64,000 nt of DNA, from assembly GCA_029555205.1 (NCBI GenBank), contig JAKPTB010000097.1, positions 62,001 through 126,000 of the forward strand, read 5' to 3'. Position numbers and translations under genes: made by a program. Positions 11,585 to 18,789 of the stretch are shown here, in pieces; the first letter of the stretch is position 1, and every line of letters begins with the position of its first letter. The stretch comes from Bacillota bacterium (lineage in GTDB: Bacteria > Bacillota > Desulfotomaculia > Desulfotomaculales > Pelotomaculaceae). Below the pieces are notes generated by a model. It was not told the origin of the DNA and did not search any database. It worked only from the letters and a program-made list of their open reading frames with translations.

Positions 11585-11680
11585 GTGGGACACGGGGTCG
11601 TGAAATTACAGATCTAAGGATACAACCGGCAGTGAGTTCAGGCTCAAACATTTCAATTTCGGAGGTTGAAGCAGGTTATT

Positions 11681-11929
11681 ATGCCCTATACATACATTTT
11701 GCAGTGTTCAGACGGCAGTTATTATACGGGTTGGACTGTTGATCTCGAAGCAAGATTGAAGTCCCACAACAGTGGTAGAGGTTCCCGTTACACCCGGGGC
11801 AGGTTGCCTGTCACCATGGTTTATTGGGAACACCATCAGGAATGCAGTGATGCCCGGCGCCGGGAGTCAGCTATCCGGAAACTGCGAAGAGAACAAAAAG
11901 AAATATTGATAAATAAAACTCTTGAATAA
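11681..11929 (+). CDS. GIY-YIG nuclease-fold protein, UPF0213/YhbQ family
   Basis: An 82-residue single-domain GIY-YIG protein. The motif appears as YTYILQCSDGSYYTGWT, followed by the conserved RLKSHNSGRGSRYTRGRLP and a C-terminal RESAIRKLRREQKEILI helix. Family members bind or nick nucleic acid, but their role in the cell is unclear. The ATG at 11681 is preferred over the TTG 15 bases upstream because GGAGG touches that TTG directly. It is probably a single-gene unit. Confidence 0.9.
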   Translation: MPYTYILQCSDGSYYTGWTVDLEARLKSHNSGRGSRYTRGRLPVTMVYWEHHQECSDARRRESAIRKLRREQKEILINKTLE

Positions 11930-12127
11930 GGTACAGTTAACCCTTAAATGCAAAAATCCATTGTTATGTCTTTTCCCAGGGAAAAACAAATTTTTAACAG
12001 GATATCTAATATGTTTTAAGAATATGTCGATTATAGTTGAAATATTGTGAAAAATTTTTGCAGGATATTTTAAAATAATAACCAACTAAGATCAAGTACC
12101 CAAAAACTAAAAAAGAGGATGCTAAAT

Positions 12128-12592
12128 ATGCTGGAAAAAACATTATTATTCCTATTGCAGGGTATTCCTGAACTATCTGGTGAGCTTGCTTTAAGTCTGG
12201 CTTTAGCCGCCGTCCCGTTGCGCTGGGGAATCATTGTGGCAGCAGGGACGGCCCTCGCTGTATTAATCTATGTAATCAGGTTGCTGCCATTCACCTTTGG
12301 TATTCATTCGGTTGTTGGTATATTAATTATGGTCTTGCTGATTATGATAGCTACCAGGGTTAAAACAACAACATGTTTTATTGTCGTTTTTGCAGCTTTT
12401 GCAACCCTTGCAGCACTTGAGTTTTTATTTAGCGAGTTGTTTTTTTCCGTTATCAAACTTGACCCTCAGTCTGTCATTTCTAATAATTTGTTGTGGAAAT
12501 TAATCGGGATGCCACAGGCGATTCTCATGATTATAATTGCCCTGCTGGTCTCCAAGTATAAGAAGCCCAGGGAGGGTATGTGGAAAATATGA
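12128..12592 (+). CDS. Polytopic membrane protein, resembling a free-standing Agr receptor sensor domain
   Basis: A 154-residue integral membrane protein with about five hydrophobic segments and a short charged tail (SKYKKPREGMWKI). The middle part, VIRLLPFTFGIHSVVGILIM, with the preceding GIPELSGELALSLALAAVPLRWG, reminds me of the membrane sensor halves of clostridial AgrC-like kinases, yet no kinase domain follows. The ATG at 12128 has GAGG nine bases upstream. The stop codon overlaps the agrB start as ATGA, so the two are translationally coupled. The family is not identified with certainty; a role as receptor or as an AgrB partner is inference from position and from the sensor-like sequence. 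Confidence 0.75.
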   Translation: MLEKTLLFLLQGIPELSGELALSLALAAVPLRWGIIVAAGTALAVLIYVIRLLPFTFGIHSVVGILIMVLLIMIATRVKTTTCFIVVFAAFATLAALEFLFSELFFSVIKLDPQSVISNNLLWKLIGMPQAILMIIIALLVSKYKKPREGMWKI

Positions 12593-13233
12593 GCTATCTC
12601 CCTATCAGCAAACGCTGCGCTGCTTTCCTGGCGACCCGCACAGGTCTGGCTCAAGAAAAAGAAATAATTCTGACATATGCAATTGAAGTTCTGGTAATCA
12701 ACGTGTTAAATATTTGTCTGGCTCTTCTTCTGGGCTTTTTTCTGGGTGTATTGCCTGGTACCGTTGCCTGCCTTATAACAGCGTTTTTTTTCAGGCATAC
12801 TGCCGGAGGGGCTCATTCAAATTCGCCCTGGCGCTGCGGTTTGGTTACTGTGACCGTTTTCCCTTTAATTGCCCTGCTGGGGTTGCACCTTTCATCTTTG
12901 AGTCAGTCATATATTGATATCATTTCCGCTGCCTGTGTCCTTATGGGGTTGGTGAAGATCCTTCAATCAGCCCCGGTGGACAATCCCGCTGCTCCAATAA
13001 TATCGCCCCTGAGGCGTAAGAAATTAAAAACCGGATCATTAATCGTTTTACTCGTTCTGGTTCTTGTATTGATATTCCTGCGACAAAGCCCGTGGCCATA
13101 CGCACAGCAGGTGTCACTATGCCTGGCGCTGAGCGTGCTTTGGATCAGCTTGATGCTTAGCAGTTACGGGCACCGGATTATGGCCTGGATAGACGGAATA
13201 TCAATCAAAAAAGAGAGGTTCGAGAGGAGGTGA
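12589..13233 (+). CDS. agrB: AgrB-like autoinducer-processing membrane protease
   Basis: A 214-residue AgrB homologue, the membrane cysteine protease that removes the C-terminal tail of AgrD and closes the thiolactone/lactone ring. The catalytic pair is visible in RHTAGGAHSNSPWRC as H76 and C83, matching H77/C84 of the staphylococcal enzyme. The typical SAPVDNPAAPI segment follows, and four to six membrane helices are apparent. ATG 12589 forms an ATGA overlap with the upstream gene; GTG 12580 is an alternative. Six bases separate its stop from the agrD start. It is the core of a peptide quorum-sensing locus. Confidence 0.95.
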   Translation: MSYLPISKRCAAFLATRTGLAQEKEIILTYAIEVLVINVLNICLALLLGFFLGVLPGTVACLITAFFFRHTAGGAHSNSPWRCGLVTVTVFPLIALLGLHLSSLSQSYIDIISAACVLMGLVKILQSAPVDNPAAPIISPLRRKKLKTGSLIVLLVLVLVLIFLRQSPWPYAQQVSLCLALSVLWISLMLSSYGHRIMAWIDGISIKKERFERR

Positions 13234-13239
13234 GTGATT

Positions 13240-13362
13240 ATGAAATATAAGTTATTTGGGTTTATGGTCACATTGTTATTATTGCTGGCAAATATTGCCT
13301 CAGCATCCGCTTGTTCTGTCTCTCAATACCAGACTGCTGTACCTGAATCCTTAAGGAGGTAG
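13240..13362 (+). CDS. agrD: AgrD-like cyclic autoinducing peptide precursor
   Basis: A 40-residue peptide beginning at ATG 13240, with AGGAGG upstream inside the end of agrB. It has a basic start (MKYKLFGF), a hydrophobic amphipathic leader (MVTLLLLLANIASASA), the ring-forming Cys25 and the tail CSVSQYQTAVPESLRR. In spacing from Cys to VPxxL it lines up exactly with staphylococcal AgrD (Cys, nine residues, then P-x-x-L), so the predicted ring is Cys25 to residue 29 or 30. It would be exported and cyclised by the adjacent AgrB. Too short for default gene callers. Confidence 0.93.
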   Translation: MKYKLFGFMVTLLLLLANIASASACSVSQYQTAVPESLRR

Positions 13363-13375
13363 GGTAAATTGTTTT

Positions 13376-13402
13376 AAAGGAGGTGGTCCATTCCACCTCT
13401 TT
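13376..13402 (+). terminator. Hairpin between agrD and the kinase gene
   Basis: AAAGGAGGTGG (13376-13386) pairs with CCACCTCTTT (13393-13402) with one bulged G and loop TCCATT. The T run is short, so it may attenuate transcription into the kinase gene or protect the agrBD message. Confidence 0.55.
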
Positions 13403-13435
13403 CTGTATCAACTATATCCCGGGGTGTTATTGTTA

Positions 13436-14734
13436 ATGGCCGATGAAAAGGACGTTTTAGAAAGAGAAAGGGAACTGTGCGAATACTTCACAATTACTCA
13501 TATAATGTGTATTTTCATCTTGCTGGCGGTCTTAATCCTTAGCGGTAATAATGAGCAAATATATCCCGTGTTTCATATCAGGCTATTTATATTTTTATGT
13601 TTCATTAGCGTTATTTTGTTGTTTAAATTGAGGTCCTATGATCAAATTAAGAAATCCAAATTTATTTCTTTAAAAGAAACCTATTACATTGCTTTTCCCC
13701 TGGTGATGACAGTGCTGATTTTATTTTTGGTAAAGGAGCATACATACTGGTCAAAAACAGTGTTTCTCCTGCCGGTAATATTTGCCGCATCCGTTGCCGG
13801 GATGAAGGCCGGTATGTATATATCTACTCTTTGCACTGTTATTTTGTTGCTGCATTCAATCATTATAGAAGGAAATGTCATTGTGCAGGCCATAGAAAAC
13901 ACACTGATTCTCTGCGGCATGATGTACGTGGTGGGCTGGTCCGTTGGGGTGACTGTTGATACCGAAGGAAAACACCGGGAGCAGTTAAAGGCAAATCTTT
14001 TATCCCTTAAAGAGGAAATAAGCAAGCGAAAGAAAATGGAAAATGAAGTTGCCCGTCTGGCTCGATTAAATCTAGTGGGAGAAATAGCTGCAGGGATCGG
14101 TCATGAGATTAGAAATCCCATGACCACAGTAAGGGGATTTTTGCAACTGATCGGCAGCAGAAAGAATTATGCAGGGGATAAAGAGTATTTTGATTTGATG
14201 ATTAGTGAGTTAGACCGGGCAAATGCGATTATAACGGAGTTTTTAACCATGGCCAAAAACAAGCCGGTCGAAAAAAAAGCAAATAACATAAATAAAATCA
14301 TTCAAACCCTATCCCCTTTGCTTGAATCTGATGCGATAAAGCATGATGTTCAGTTGAAAGTGGAACTGGAAAAAATCCCCGATTTGTTTTTGGATGAAAA
14401 GGAAATAAGGCAGATAGTATATAATTTGATTCGTAACGCACTGGAGGCCACCCCCGCCGGCAGTATCATAATTATAAGGACTTTTCTGGATCCGGAAGCT
14501 GTTGTGCTAGCGGTTCAAGATCAGGGACCGGGCATTGACCCTAAAATTCTGGATAAAATTGGTACACCTTTTTTTACTACAAAAGACCATGGAACCGGCC
14601 TGGGCCTGGCAGTCTGCTACAGTATTGCCAACCGGCATAATGCTGCTATTAAAATAGAAACCAGCTCATCAGGCACTACTTTCTATGTGAGGTTTTATTT
14701 GAAGCGGACAAATGTTCTTGAAAGTACCGGTTGA
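13436..14734 (+). CDS. Membrane sensor histidine kinase, sporulation-kinase (KinB) type
   Basis: A 432-residue sensor kinase. About six hydrophobic segments fill residues 20-175; a short coiled coil follows (LSLKEEISKRKKMENEVARL). The dimerisation/phosphorylation helix is NLVGEIAAGIGHEIRNPMTT with H223, typical of Bacillus KinB/KinC-like sporulation kinases. The ATPase domain shows N (NLIRNALEAT), G1 (DQGPGID), F (TPFFTTK) and G2 (GTGLGLAV) boxes. This is HisKA/HATPase_c architecture and not the HPK10 type of classical AgrC. ATG 13436 has GGGG upstream; GTG 13424 and TTG 13430 are alternatives. No response regulator gene is near. It directly follows agrBD and is the best candidate for the peptide receptor, which is inference. 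Confidence 0.92.
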   Translation: MADEKDVLERERELCEYFTITHIMCIFILLAVLILSGNNEQIYPVFHIRLFIFLCFISVILLFKLRSYDQIKKSKFISLKETYYIAFPLVMTVLILFLVKEHTYWSKTVFLLPVIFAASVAGMKAGMYISTLCTVILLLHSIIIEGNVIVQAIENTLILCGMMYVVGWSVGVTVDTEGKHREQLKANLLSLKEEISKRKKMENEVARLARLNLVGEIAAGIGHEIRNPMTTVRGFLQLIGSRKNYAGDKEYFDLMISELDRANAIITEFLTMAKNKPVEKKANNINKIIQTLSPLLESDAIKHDVQLKVELEKIPDLFLDEKEIRQIVYNLIRNALEATPAGSIIIIRTFLDPEAVVLAVQDQGPGIDPKILDKIGTPFFTTKDHGTGLGLAVCYSIANRHNAAIKIETSSSGTTFYVRFYLKRTNVLESTG

Positions 14735-17048: not shown

Positions 17049-18644
17049 TTAGATGGTTATGGTGGTGCCGTCGAACTTGGTGAAGGAGAAGCCCGCGAAG
17101 TCTTCGTTGTAAGTTCTTTTGTAGTCCTGAAGGATTCCGATGGCCACAGCCTCACCCAGCTTCAGGCCCTCGCTGCCGTCGGTGCGCCAATGTACACCTG
17201 CGGCGTTGCGGCCATAGCCGACATTTGTAGCCAGTTTATTAATCTCCCCGCCCACCGTCAAAGGTTCTCCCGTGTAAGGCAGCAGCGTGAGGCCGTCGGC
17301 GCTTGCCACCACCGGATCGGGAATTATAAACCATTCCTTGAAGAAAGCCTTCAGCATGGTGGCGCATGCCCCTGCGCCGCAAGCGTGGCCGGCGGGGTAA
17401 GCCGGATGGTAAGGCGAGCCTTGGGGATAGGCCACAGGCAGCAGGTATGTGCCGTATTTATTGAAGATTTCGCTAATAGCCTGGGAGTTGAGCAGTTCTT
17501 CGTTAACCGGGTAGTCGGCGGCGCCCTTCAGCAGGATATGGACGCGCCCTCCGAAGGCCTCGGGCCGGAGCCGGCGGTGGACCAGGAATTTCTGGAACCA
17601 TCCGGCCAGGTTTGCCGCCCGGGCCGCCCGGGCCACAAAGTCCAAAATGTGCTGAGCTGCGAATGTGGCGAAACCTGTCTGGGTCAAGGAACGCAGGTAG
17701 GGGTTGGTTTGGGACAATGCCGCCGGGCCGTAACTGAGCAAAATTAAGCAGGCGCCGAGACAACCCTGGTAACTGAAATCACGCTGGTTCCACTCGCCCA
17801 GGTCACGGTTATTGCGGATATAACGGGGTGTGGGGTCGAACTGATTCGAGGTTGACGGAGAAAATCCGTTTTGGATGTTCAGCCAGTCCTGGTATGAAGT
17901 CAGGTAGTCGTCGCCTGCCACTGTGGTGCGATTGCGCTGGACAATTGTGGAGGCCCCGAAAGGAATGTTTTTCCAGAGAAACTGGGAAATATATGGCCCC
18001 ACCAAATCGCCCGGAGTGTTGCCGCGAAAAAGGGTTCCCGTAGTGACTTCCCCGTTTACTTTGGGTCCGCGGAAGTCTGAGAATTTGGAAAGATCGGAAG
18101 CGGCTGCAAGTGTCAGCGGATTTGTGTCGTAGTCCGCGAAGGGAACATCACGGGTTAGCGCCAGCCAGTAAAGCTCAGCCATCTCACTGGCGTTCCAGGC
18201 GCTGCTGAAAGCCGGAGCCGGGGGTATACTCAAATGGTGAGAATCAGGTCCCGCCAGTTCGTAGGCGTAAGCGGACTGGGGATTGGCGAGTTTGGCGCCG
18301 CCTCTTAAAGGAATCATTTCAAAATCATCCGGATTGCCGGTTGACAAAGCCCTGAGATAAGCTTTGTAAGCGTTGAGGTCAACCTCGCCAAGTTGATTAT
18401 GCGGTAACGCCTTGGAAAAATTGCCGATTTTATTGGGATAAAGATCTTCATCTCCATTGCAGGGATGGCCCGGGAGGGGAAGGTCCCTTTGAAAAATTGC
18501 CGCATCCAGGCGGACTTGAAAAGCATCTTGCCGGCGCTGCCGTCCGGCGGTCGGACCGATTTCACATGACTCCACCATGTTTTCCAGATTCACTGAATTA
18601 ATATCTCTAATTTGCTGGTTAATATCTATTAATTTTTCGCTCAT
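17049..18644 (-). CDS. Vanadium-dependent bromoperoxidase-like protein (PAP2 superfamily)
   Basis: A 531-residue cytoplasmic (no signal peptide) protein with the vanadate-binding residues of the algal/cyanobacterial bromoperoxidase type. In order: K352 and R360 in QKFLVHRRLRPEAFGG (Lys-Arg spacing of eight, as in Ascophyllum), the acid-base His413 in YHPAYPAGHA, G419 and H420, then R479 and the vanadium ligand H485 in GRNAAGVHWR. The Ser that normally precedes the Gly-His (SGH) is Ala here. Known enzymes oxidise halide with peroxide; PAP2 relatives are phosphatases. The ATG at 18642-18644 has GGGAGTGA upstream. It stands alone. Unusual for an anaerobe; activity toward halide is not proven by the sequence. 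Confidence 0.87.
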   Translation of the reverse strand: MSEKLIDINQQIRDINSVNLENMVESCEIGPTAGRQRRQDAFQVRLDAAIFQRDLPLPGHPCNGDEDLYPNKIGNFSKALPHNQLGEVDLNAYKAYLRALSTGNPDDFEMIPLRGGAKLANPQSAYAYELAGPDSHHLSIPPAPAFSSAWNASEMAELYWLALTRDVPFADYDTNPLTLAAASDLSKFSDFRGPKVNGEVTTGTLFRGNTPGDLVGPYISQFLWKNIPFGASTIVQRNRTTVAGDDYLTSYQDWLNIQNGFSPSTSNQFDPTPRYIRNNRDLGEWNQRDFSYQGCLGACLILLSYGPAALSQTNPYLRSLTQTGFATFAAQHILDFVARAARAANLAGWFQKFLVHRRLRPEAFGGRVHILLKGAADYPVNEELLNSQAISEIFNKYGTYLLPVAYPQGSPYHPAYPAGHACGAGACATMLKAFFKEWFIIPDPVVASADGLTLLPYTGEPLTVGGEINKLATNVGYGRNAAGVHWRTDGSEGLKLGEAVAIGILQDYKRTYNEDFAGFSFTKFDGTTITI

Positions 18645-18789
18645 TTGGATCACTCCCTGATAATTATGTCAATACATTATATACAAAATATGGTAAATGT
18701 TTCCTGGGTTAATAAAGTGTATTTAGACCGCGGAAGAGTTCTCTCCTCCAGAGTAAAAAACTATCCCCACTTATTGCCCGGGCAGAGTA

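Follow-up and report, generated by a model that had tools for sequence, protein, structure and literature searches.

The window analysed here, a 64,000-nucleotide (nt) stretch of a Pelotomaculaceae genome (2.96 Mb, 97.9 % complete; contig C146), carries at positions 12128-14734 four genes of the same direction in the order ORF1, agrB, agrD and a HisKA kinase gene (Table 1). These probably constitute a variant of the agr quorum-sensing system, occurring in Pelotomaculum-related anaerobes that form spores, in which the small membrane protein ORF1 and the kinase, an effector with an N-terminal membrane domain here termed HKN, would replace the classical AgrC/AgrA pair and, in this genome, would feed the sporulation phosphorelay. 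A single signalling operon is the best explanation for the arrangement. The ORF1 stop codon and the agrB start overlap in an ATGA at 12589, as read from the sequence, agrB and agrD are only 6 nt apart with an AGGAGG site preceding agrD, and the 73-nt gap between agrD and the kinase gene contains a stem-loop. The closest named relatives are Pelotomaculum metagenome-assembled genomes, with ORF1 identities of 99 %, 90 % and 43 %. The original prediction, made from the bare sequence, had read three genes here and thereby overlooked ORF1 as a separate first gene. Its assignment of the other components stood, as AgrB with its H76/C83 pair, counted from the ATG at 12589, was confirmed by PF04647 (E 1.4e-37, 129 bits; cut-off 23), the 40-residue AgrD by TIGR04223 (34.5 bits, E 1.5e-8; cut-off 19), and the membrane kinase following agrBD by Pfam matches to HisKA (E 2.3e-13) and HATPase_c (E 7.9e-23) behind a hydrophobic N-terminus. 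The window agrB is the sole AgrB gene of the genome.

The key to this reading is the relationship of ORF1 to AgrC. A single-sequence search with ORF1 showed that almost all agr loci of the order encode a shared 134-column domain, either as a separate protein of ~155 amino acids (aa) or as residues 9-141 of ~457-aa kinases encoded beside agrBD. In a profile-profile comparison (hhalign), 52 free ORF1s matched 12 such fused AgrC-type kinases with a probability of 99.6 and an E of 8.4e-25 over 154 columns. The fused kinases combine SPOB_a with GHKL and have a REC-LytTR regulator at their side, which is the AgrC/AgrA layout; they match the NCBIfam model of Staphylococcus AgrC weakly (E 1.7e-15, below cut-off). 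In a further, split class of AgrC, the ORF1-family domain stands alone as a protein, and the next one, of 282 aa, has two transmembrane (TM) segments and a GHKL domain; this second protein matches the same NCBIfam model from residue 142 onward, also below cut-off. Through ORF1, a homologue of the sensor at the N-terminus of AgrC-type kinases, the locus holds the sensor half of AgrC but not its kinase half, so that the predicted absence of AgrC held for the latter and failed for the former. The predicted absence of AgrA was borne out: no regulator is encoded at the locus, and the only LytTR protein of the genome lies on another contig beside a LytS-like kinase. Likewise, a dedicated AgrC/AgrA pair elsewhere, which would have spoken against the proposed circuit, was not encountered, as the genome contains no second ORF1- or AgrC-type sensor.

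From this homology, ORF1 is predicted to be a peptide-receptor subunit. No Pfam or NCBIfam family matched ORF1, and its profile had no match in the PDB. The AlphaFold model, with five helices, is weak (pLDDT 66, built from three sequences) and gave no PDB match under E 2 in a fold comparison; neither the profile nor the fold searches of the PDB returned a peptide-bound structure or homologue. A search for ORF1 on plasmids was without match, and a phage search for AgrC relatives matched the kinase half alone and not the sensor half. Homology between ORF1 and HKN was considered and rejected (hhalign probability 0.3).

The gene order at related loci bears on the role of ORF1. Several loci read AgrB-AgrD-ORF1-kinase, with ORF1 adjoining the kinase and not AgrB. 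Furthermore, four mini-cassettes (L215, L216, L217 and L218, on G095:C132, G108:C7, G101:C1 and G100:C8) consist of ORF1, AgrD and an HKN-HisKA kinase without AgrB, and presumably rely on an AgrB encoded elsewhere, and tandem ORF1 copies occur ahead of a single agrB. Together, these arrangements argue that ORF1 goes with sensing and not with maturation or export by AgrB. At L131, L138, L097, L084, L099, L109 and L136, two to four tandem ORF1 copies or fragments were seen upstream of one agrB; they are possibly receptors for different peptides. An AgrD in each gap between such copies was looked for, which was mostly absent and found in three related loci.

The cassette is conserved far beyond the source genome. 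AgrB occurs in 93 of the 113 genomes of the order, and the neighbourhoods of 121 AgrB genes of the order, classed by profile, comprise 76 loci of what we call class A (ORF1, AgrB and AgrD together with a protein whose N-terminus is the six-TM HKN domain), 23 with split AgrC, 13 with fused AgrC, two with AgrC but no listed ORF1, and seven others. The HKN domain, which weakly resembles DUF4118 (29/49 members), is common to the window kinase and to the GGDEF-HD-GYP proteins of homologous loci; in class A it is followed either by HisKA-HATPase_c or by GGDEF-HD-GYP modules of cyclic di-GMP (c-di-GMP) turnover, in about equal numbers. Among strong matches, to which all HKN and ORF1 counts refer, 92 of the 112 HKN genes of the order have an ORF1 within 3 kb: 86 of them also have an AgrB within 4 kb, and six have ORF1 only (one of which, in G009, does have AgrB on re-reading); three further genes have AgrB only. 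Conversely, HKN lies within 3.5 kb of 109 of the 113 free ORF1s. Outside the order, in a wider sample of 398 genomes of the phylum, 48 of 61 HKN genes are near an ORF1, spanning 23 families, and 11 of the 13 such loci that were opened show ORF1, AgrB, an AgrD-like gene and HKN in the standard order, mostly with a GGDEF-HD-GYP output. Hence the linkage of the kinase to agrBD, whose lack in relatives had been named as a refutation, is kept across the order, and conservation of the cassette within and beyond it is far more than chance. At one agr locus (L108; G034:C1, ~3,273,000-3,277,500), an HKN-HisKA kinase and an HKN-GGDEF-HD-GYP protein are encoded in a row, which suggests a single peptide feeding two outputs.

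In an AgrB tree (111 rows) and an ORF1 tree (104 rows), both quick trees built from few columns, class A and AgrC-type loci are separated by a single change, whereas the HisKA and c-di-GMP outputs require ~7 changes on either tree, with starred branches forcing at least 2 or 3. This indicates that class A is an old, separate branch in which the output domain was repeatedly exchanged. The peptide precursors differ between the classes too. By comparison with other AgrD precursors, which set the position of the ring, the window AgrD is predicted to yield a five-residue thiolactone, C-S-V-S-Q, ahead of YQTAVPESLRR; in nearly all class A AgrD sequences read, a cysteine stands five residues ahead of a conserved aromatic residue. 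The first residue of the predicted ring is thus cysteine for nearly every class A precursor, but serine for 21 of the 23 split-AgrC precursors, and ring chemistry, as read from these precursors, tracks receptor class.

Several features point to the sporulation phosphorelay as the most likely output of the window kinase, judging from sequence comparison. No response regulator gene lies between or beside the four cassette genes, and the specificity residues of the kinase, TTGFQL, are identical to those of Dtox_1918 and Dtox_3426 (PMC6136694, Table 1); Dtox_1918 was found to phosphorylate Spo0F in vitro, and Spo0A via Spo0B but not directly (Davidson et al., PMC6136694). A relative (G034) encodes two agr-linked HisKA kinases with TTGFQF and TTGFQL, which fit as candidates for Dtox_3081 and Dtox_3426 by listed residues and positions. 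The relay itself appears to be present in the source genome: a Spo0F-like REC protein (L194) is encoded beside fba and carries the residues QGVLEAD by alignment, an SPOB_a protein (L212, PF14689 over cut-off) precedes obg and bears the same QVGLQL residues as D. acetoxidans Spo0B, and a Spo0A-like protein (L199) is located after spoIVB, the Spo0F and Spo0A identities being drawn from sequence reading and gene neighbours. The AlphaFold model of the kinase has six predicted N-terminal helices at low confidence, and the full model was too weak for use. The likeness to KinB, as which the kinase had originally been typed, is one of topology only, namely the six-TM N-terminus. Longer class A kinases hold extra segments, for instance a PAS domain in the agr-linked kinase of a relative (L050), whereas Pfam detected no PAS domain in the window kinase; sporulation kinases often have one, but it is not obligatory.

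A further line of evidence comes from Spo0A boxes. The exact box TGTCGAA is found, always in one orientation, in 19 of 65 class A upstream regions. Among 872 other upstream regions its frequency is 3.6 %, and among AgrC-type loci it precedes 2 of 34. None of 300 permuted motifs reached 19 class A upstreams, and chance as the source of these boxes was rejected from both the permuted motifs and the generic upstream regions. The enrichment is seen with either output (11/28 cassettes with kinases, 8/37 with c-di-GMP proteins). Regulation of the class A group by Spo0A is therefore likely, as far as motif occurrence can tell. The window and two congeners carry TGTCGAT at the corresponding place, a third congener has TGTCGAA, and the TGTCGA core is shared by all (sites: window, AATATGTCGATTATAGTTGAAAT; G087, AAATGTCGATTATAGTTGAAAT; G088, CATTGTCGAATTATGTTGAAAT), so that Spo0A control of the window copy through this candidate one-mismatch site is plausible. 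The agrD-kinase gap also bears a recurrent element: a stem of at least 8 bp just past agrD is present in 46 of 68 class A gaps, compared with 3.8 expected from dinucleotide shuffles. This hairpin is a possible attenuator or mRNA-stoichiometry element and might set kinase expression below that of agrD.

Taken together, the original idea of a cyclic peptide wired to a sporulation kinase gained from the linkage, the Spo0F-type residues, the relay genes and the Spo0A boxes, but it had missed both ORF1 and the c-di-GMP cassettes. In the model that we propose, AgrB would cut and cyclise AgrD into the short thiolactone, as suggested by homology, and the peptide would be sensed by a two-protein receptor, ORF1 paired with the kinase's six-TM HKN domain. 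Sensing would alter kinase activity, and phosphate may then pass to Spo0F, Spo0B and finally Spo0A, whose phosphorylated form probably feeds back on the operon through the Spo0A boxes. Sister cassettes would use this ORF1/HKN front end to drive c-di-GMP turnover instead. Because a GGDEF-HD-GYP protein replaces the kinase in about half of the homologous cassettes, the ORF1/HKN system is a modular receptor-effector pair and not specifically a sporulation device. On balance, we lean slightly towards the broader view that class A forms a distinct and widespread agr branch with a split receptor (ORF1 and HKN), interchangeable Spo0F-kinase and GGDEF-HD-GYP outputs, and an operon that is Spo0A-controlled, closing the loop.

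Some observations weigh against this model. Four more kinases of the genome carry related residues (TTGFQI, TTGFQM, TSGFQL and TAGFQL); Spo0F-type residues are thus common among its kinases, which supports membership in a sporulation-kinase group and singles out no one target. Neither ORF1 nor AgrB is listed near 17 of the 112 strong HKN genes of the order, some of them at contig ends, and one of these is in the window's own genome: the HKN-HisKA kinase L221 (G000:C12:51407-53191, TSGFQL), which has no ORF1, AgrD or AgrB beside it. The kinase's own six-TM domain could be sensing alone, or sensing something else. In addition, the AlphaFold models of ORF1 and the kinase are weak and gave no fold match, the window's own upstream site is not the exact box, and the steps that we infer are synthesis of the peptide, its binding by ORF1, an ORF1-HKN complex, the sign of the response and the kinase's phosphotransfer.

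Three other explanations were weighed. HKN itself might be the peptide receptor, with ORF1 serving AgrB as an accessory in maturation, export or immunity. The overlapping ORF1 and agrB genes, which suggest coupled translation, and the kinase's own six-TM domain would suit this arrangement; yet against it stand the match of ORF1 to the N-terminal part of fused AgrC-type kinases, the AgrB-less modules of ORF1, AgrD and HKN kinase, the loci where ORF1 follows AgrD and adjoins the kinase, and the near-constant company of HKN with strong free ORF1s, and we regard it as unlikely. Still less credible, and in our view quite improbable, is that the kinase is merely co-transcribed and senses an unrelated cue, with the peptide acting on another receptor in the genome. 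An HKN-HisKA kinase such as L221, lacking ORF1 and AgrD beside it, and the hairpin separating agrD from the kinase gene could be taken in this sense; however, the linkage is order-wide and wider, the genome lacks any other AgrC- or ORF1-type sensor, and its only LytTR regulator adjoins a LytS-like kinase.

The remaining alternative concerns the output alone: the kinase may well sense the peptide but feed a regulator other than Spo0F, with an outcome other than sporulation. That sister cassettes drive c-di-GMP turnover implies a front end not tied to sporulation, and the genome encodes two small REC proteins with Spo0F-like residues, either of which is compatible with such a detour. We nevertheless find it doubtful, as the TTGFQL residues equal those of a kinase proven to use Spo0F, the kinase has no adjacent regulator gene of its own, and Spo0A boxes precede class A cassettes. 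Transfer to Spo0F after sensing by ORF1 together with HKN is thus the reading we prefer.

With respect to known systems, the cassette has in common with the classical agr system (AgrBDCA of Staphylococcus and Listeria) the His/Cys pair of AgrB, an AgrD whose five-residue ring precedes a tail containing P, and an operon that also encodes a sensor domain of the AgrC type. It differs in that the sensor is a separate 154-aa protein, the GHKL (HPK10) half and the LytTR-type AgrA are missing, and the effector is an HKN-HisKA kinase, or an HKN-GGDEF-HD-GYP protein in sister loci. A separate sensor of the ORF1 family is likewise found in the split-AgrC loci (class B: an ORF1-like protein of 158 aa, a 282-aa 2TM-GHKL protein, AgrB, AgrD and LytTR), but there the kinase half and an AgrA-like regulator are present, in place of which the window has the HKN effector. 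Such a split of AgrC into a ~158-aa sensor and a 282-aa GHKL kinase was seen at L051, L079, L129, L140 and other class B loci; we know of no description of it. To the orphan sporulation kinases (KinA-E; Dtox_1918, Dtox_3081 and Dtox_3426; PMC6136694), the window kinase is similar in being an orphan HisKA kinase with TTGFQL-type residues in a genome with Spo0F-, Spo0B- and Spo0A-like proteins. It is unlike them in lacking a PAS domain, and no agr link is described for the Dtox kinases (PMC6136694), whereas the window kinase gene shares its operon with those of a peptide signal and a receptor half.

Table 1. Features of the agr-type cassette and its upstream region, in window coordinates
Feature	Position	Strand	Description
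Spo0A-box-like site	12025..12031	+	TGTCGAT, one mismatch to TGTCGAA; ~100 nt upstream of ORF1
ORF1	12128..12592	+	154 aa; alternative start 12119; free-standing five-TM domain
agrB	12589..13233	+	214 aa; AgrB peptidase, H76/C83
agrD	13240..13362	+	40 aa, MKYKLFGFMVTLLLLLANIASASACSVSQYQTAVPESLRR; TIGR04223
Intercistronic stem-loop	13377..13402	+	AAGGAGGTGG-tccatt-CCACCTCTTT
Effector kinase	13436..14734	+	432 aa; alternative start GTG 13424; HKN + HisKA + HATPase_c
HKN domain	13436..13993	+	~185 aa; six predicted TM helices (alignment)
H-box	14102..14149	+	HEIRNPMTTVRGFLQL; specificity residues T-T-G-F-Q-L

Two neighbours of the cassette deserve mention. Immediately upstream, at window positions 11666-11929, lies a gene for an 87-aa GIY-YIG protein (E 1.1e-16). 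On the minus strand, positions 17049-18653 encode a protein of 534 aa that matches PAP2 at its C-terminus (E 2.7e-6) and has a PxYPxGHA-like motif, reminiscent of vanadium-dependent haloperoxidases, which is unexpected for a strict anaerobe.

To date, agr-type signalling has been tied to sporulation without a classical receptor in C. difficile, where Agr1 (agrB1D1, no agrC or agrA) promotes sporulation by an unknown pathway (PMC11210211, PMC8534292); in a review from 2024, the route from Agr1 to sporulation is still given as unknown (PMC11210211). The window resembles this case in having AgrBD without a classical receptor and a probable tie to sporulation, but while no link to a kinase is known for Agr1, the operon described here holds a candidate receptor half and a kinase. 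In a single type of operon, the cassette unites Spo0A boxes with candidates for both the receptor half and the kinase, and thus bears on the promotion of sporulation by agr where AgrC and AgrA are lacking. In addition, for Desulfotomaculum, the only proteins treated in two reviews on quorum sensing of sulfate reducers are of the LuxR type, although AgrB is widespread in the order. ORF1, HKN, and the combinations of agr with a HisKA sporulation kinase or with GGDEF-HD-GYP were undescribed in the open-access literature searched, whose silence is no proof of novelty. The c-di-GMP version of the cassette would represent a direct peptide-to-c-di-GMP circuit, for which no agr precedent was found in that literature. 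Our findings suggest that the operon is a direct, apparently undescribed wire from cell-cell signalling to decisions on sporulation and c-di-GMP.

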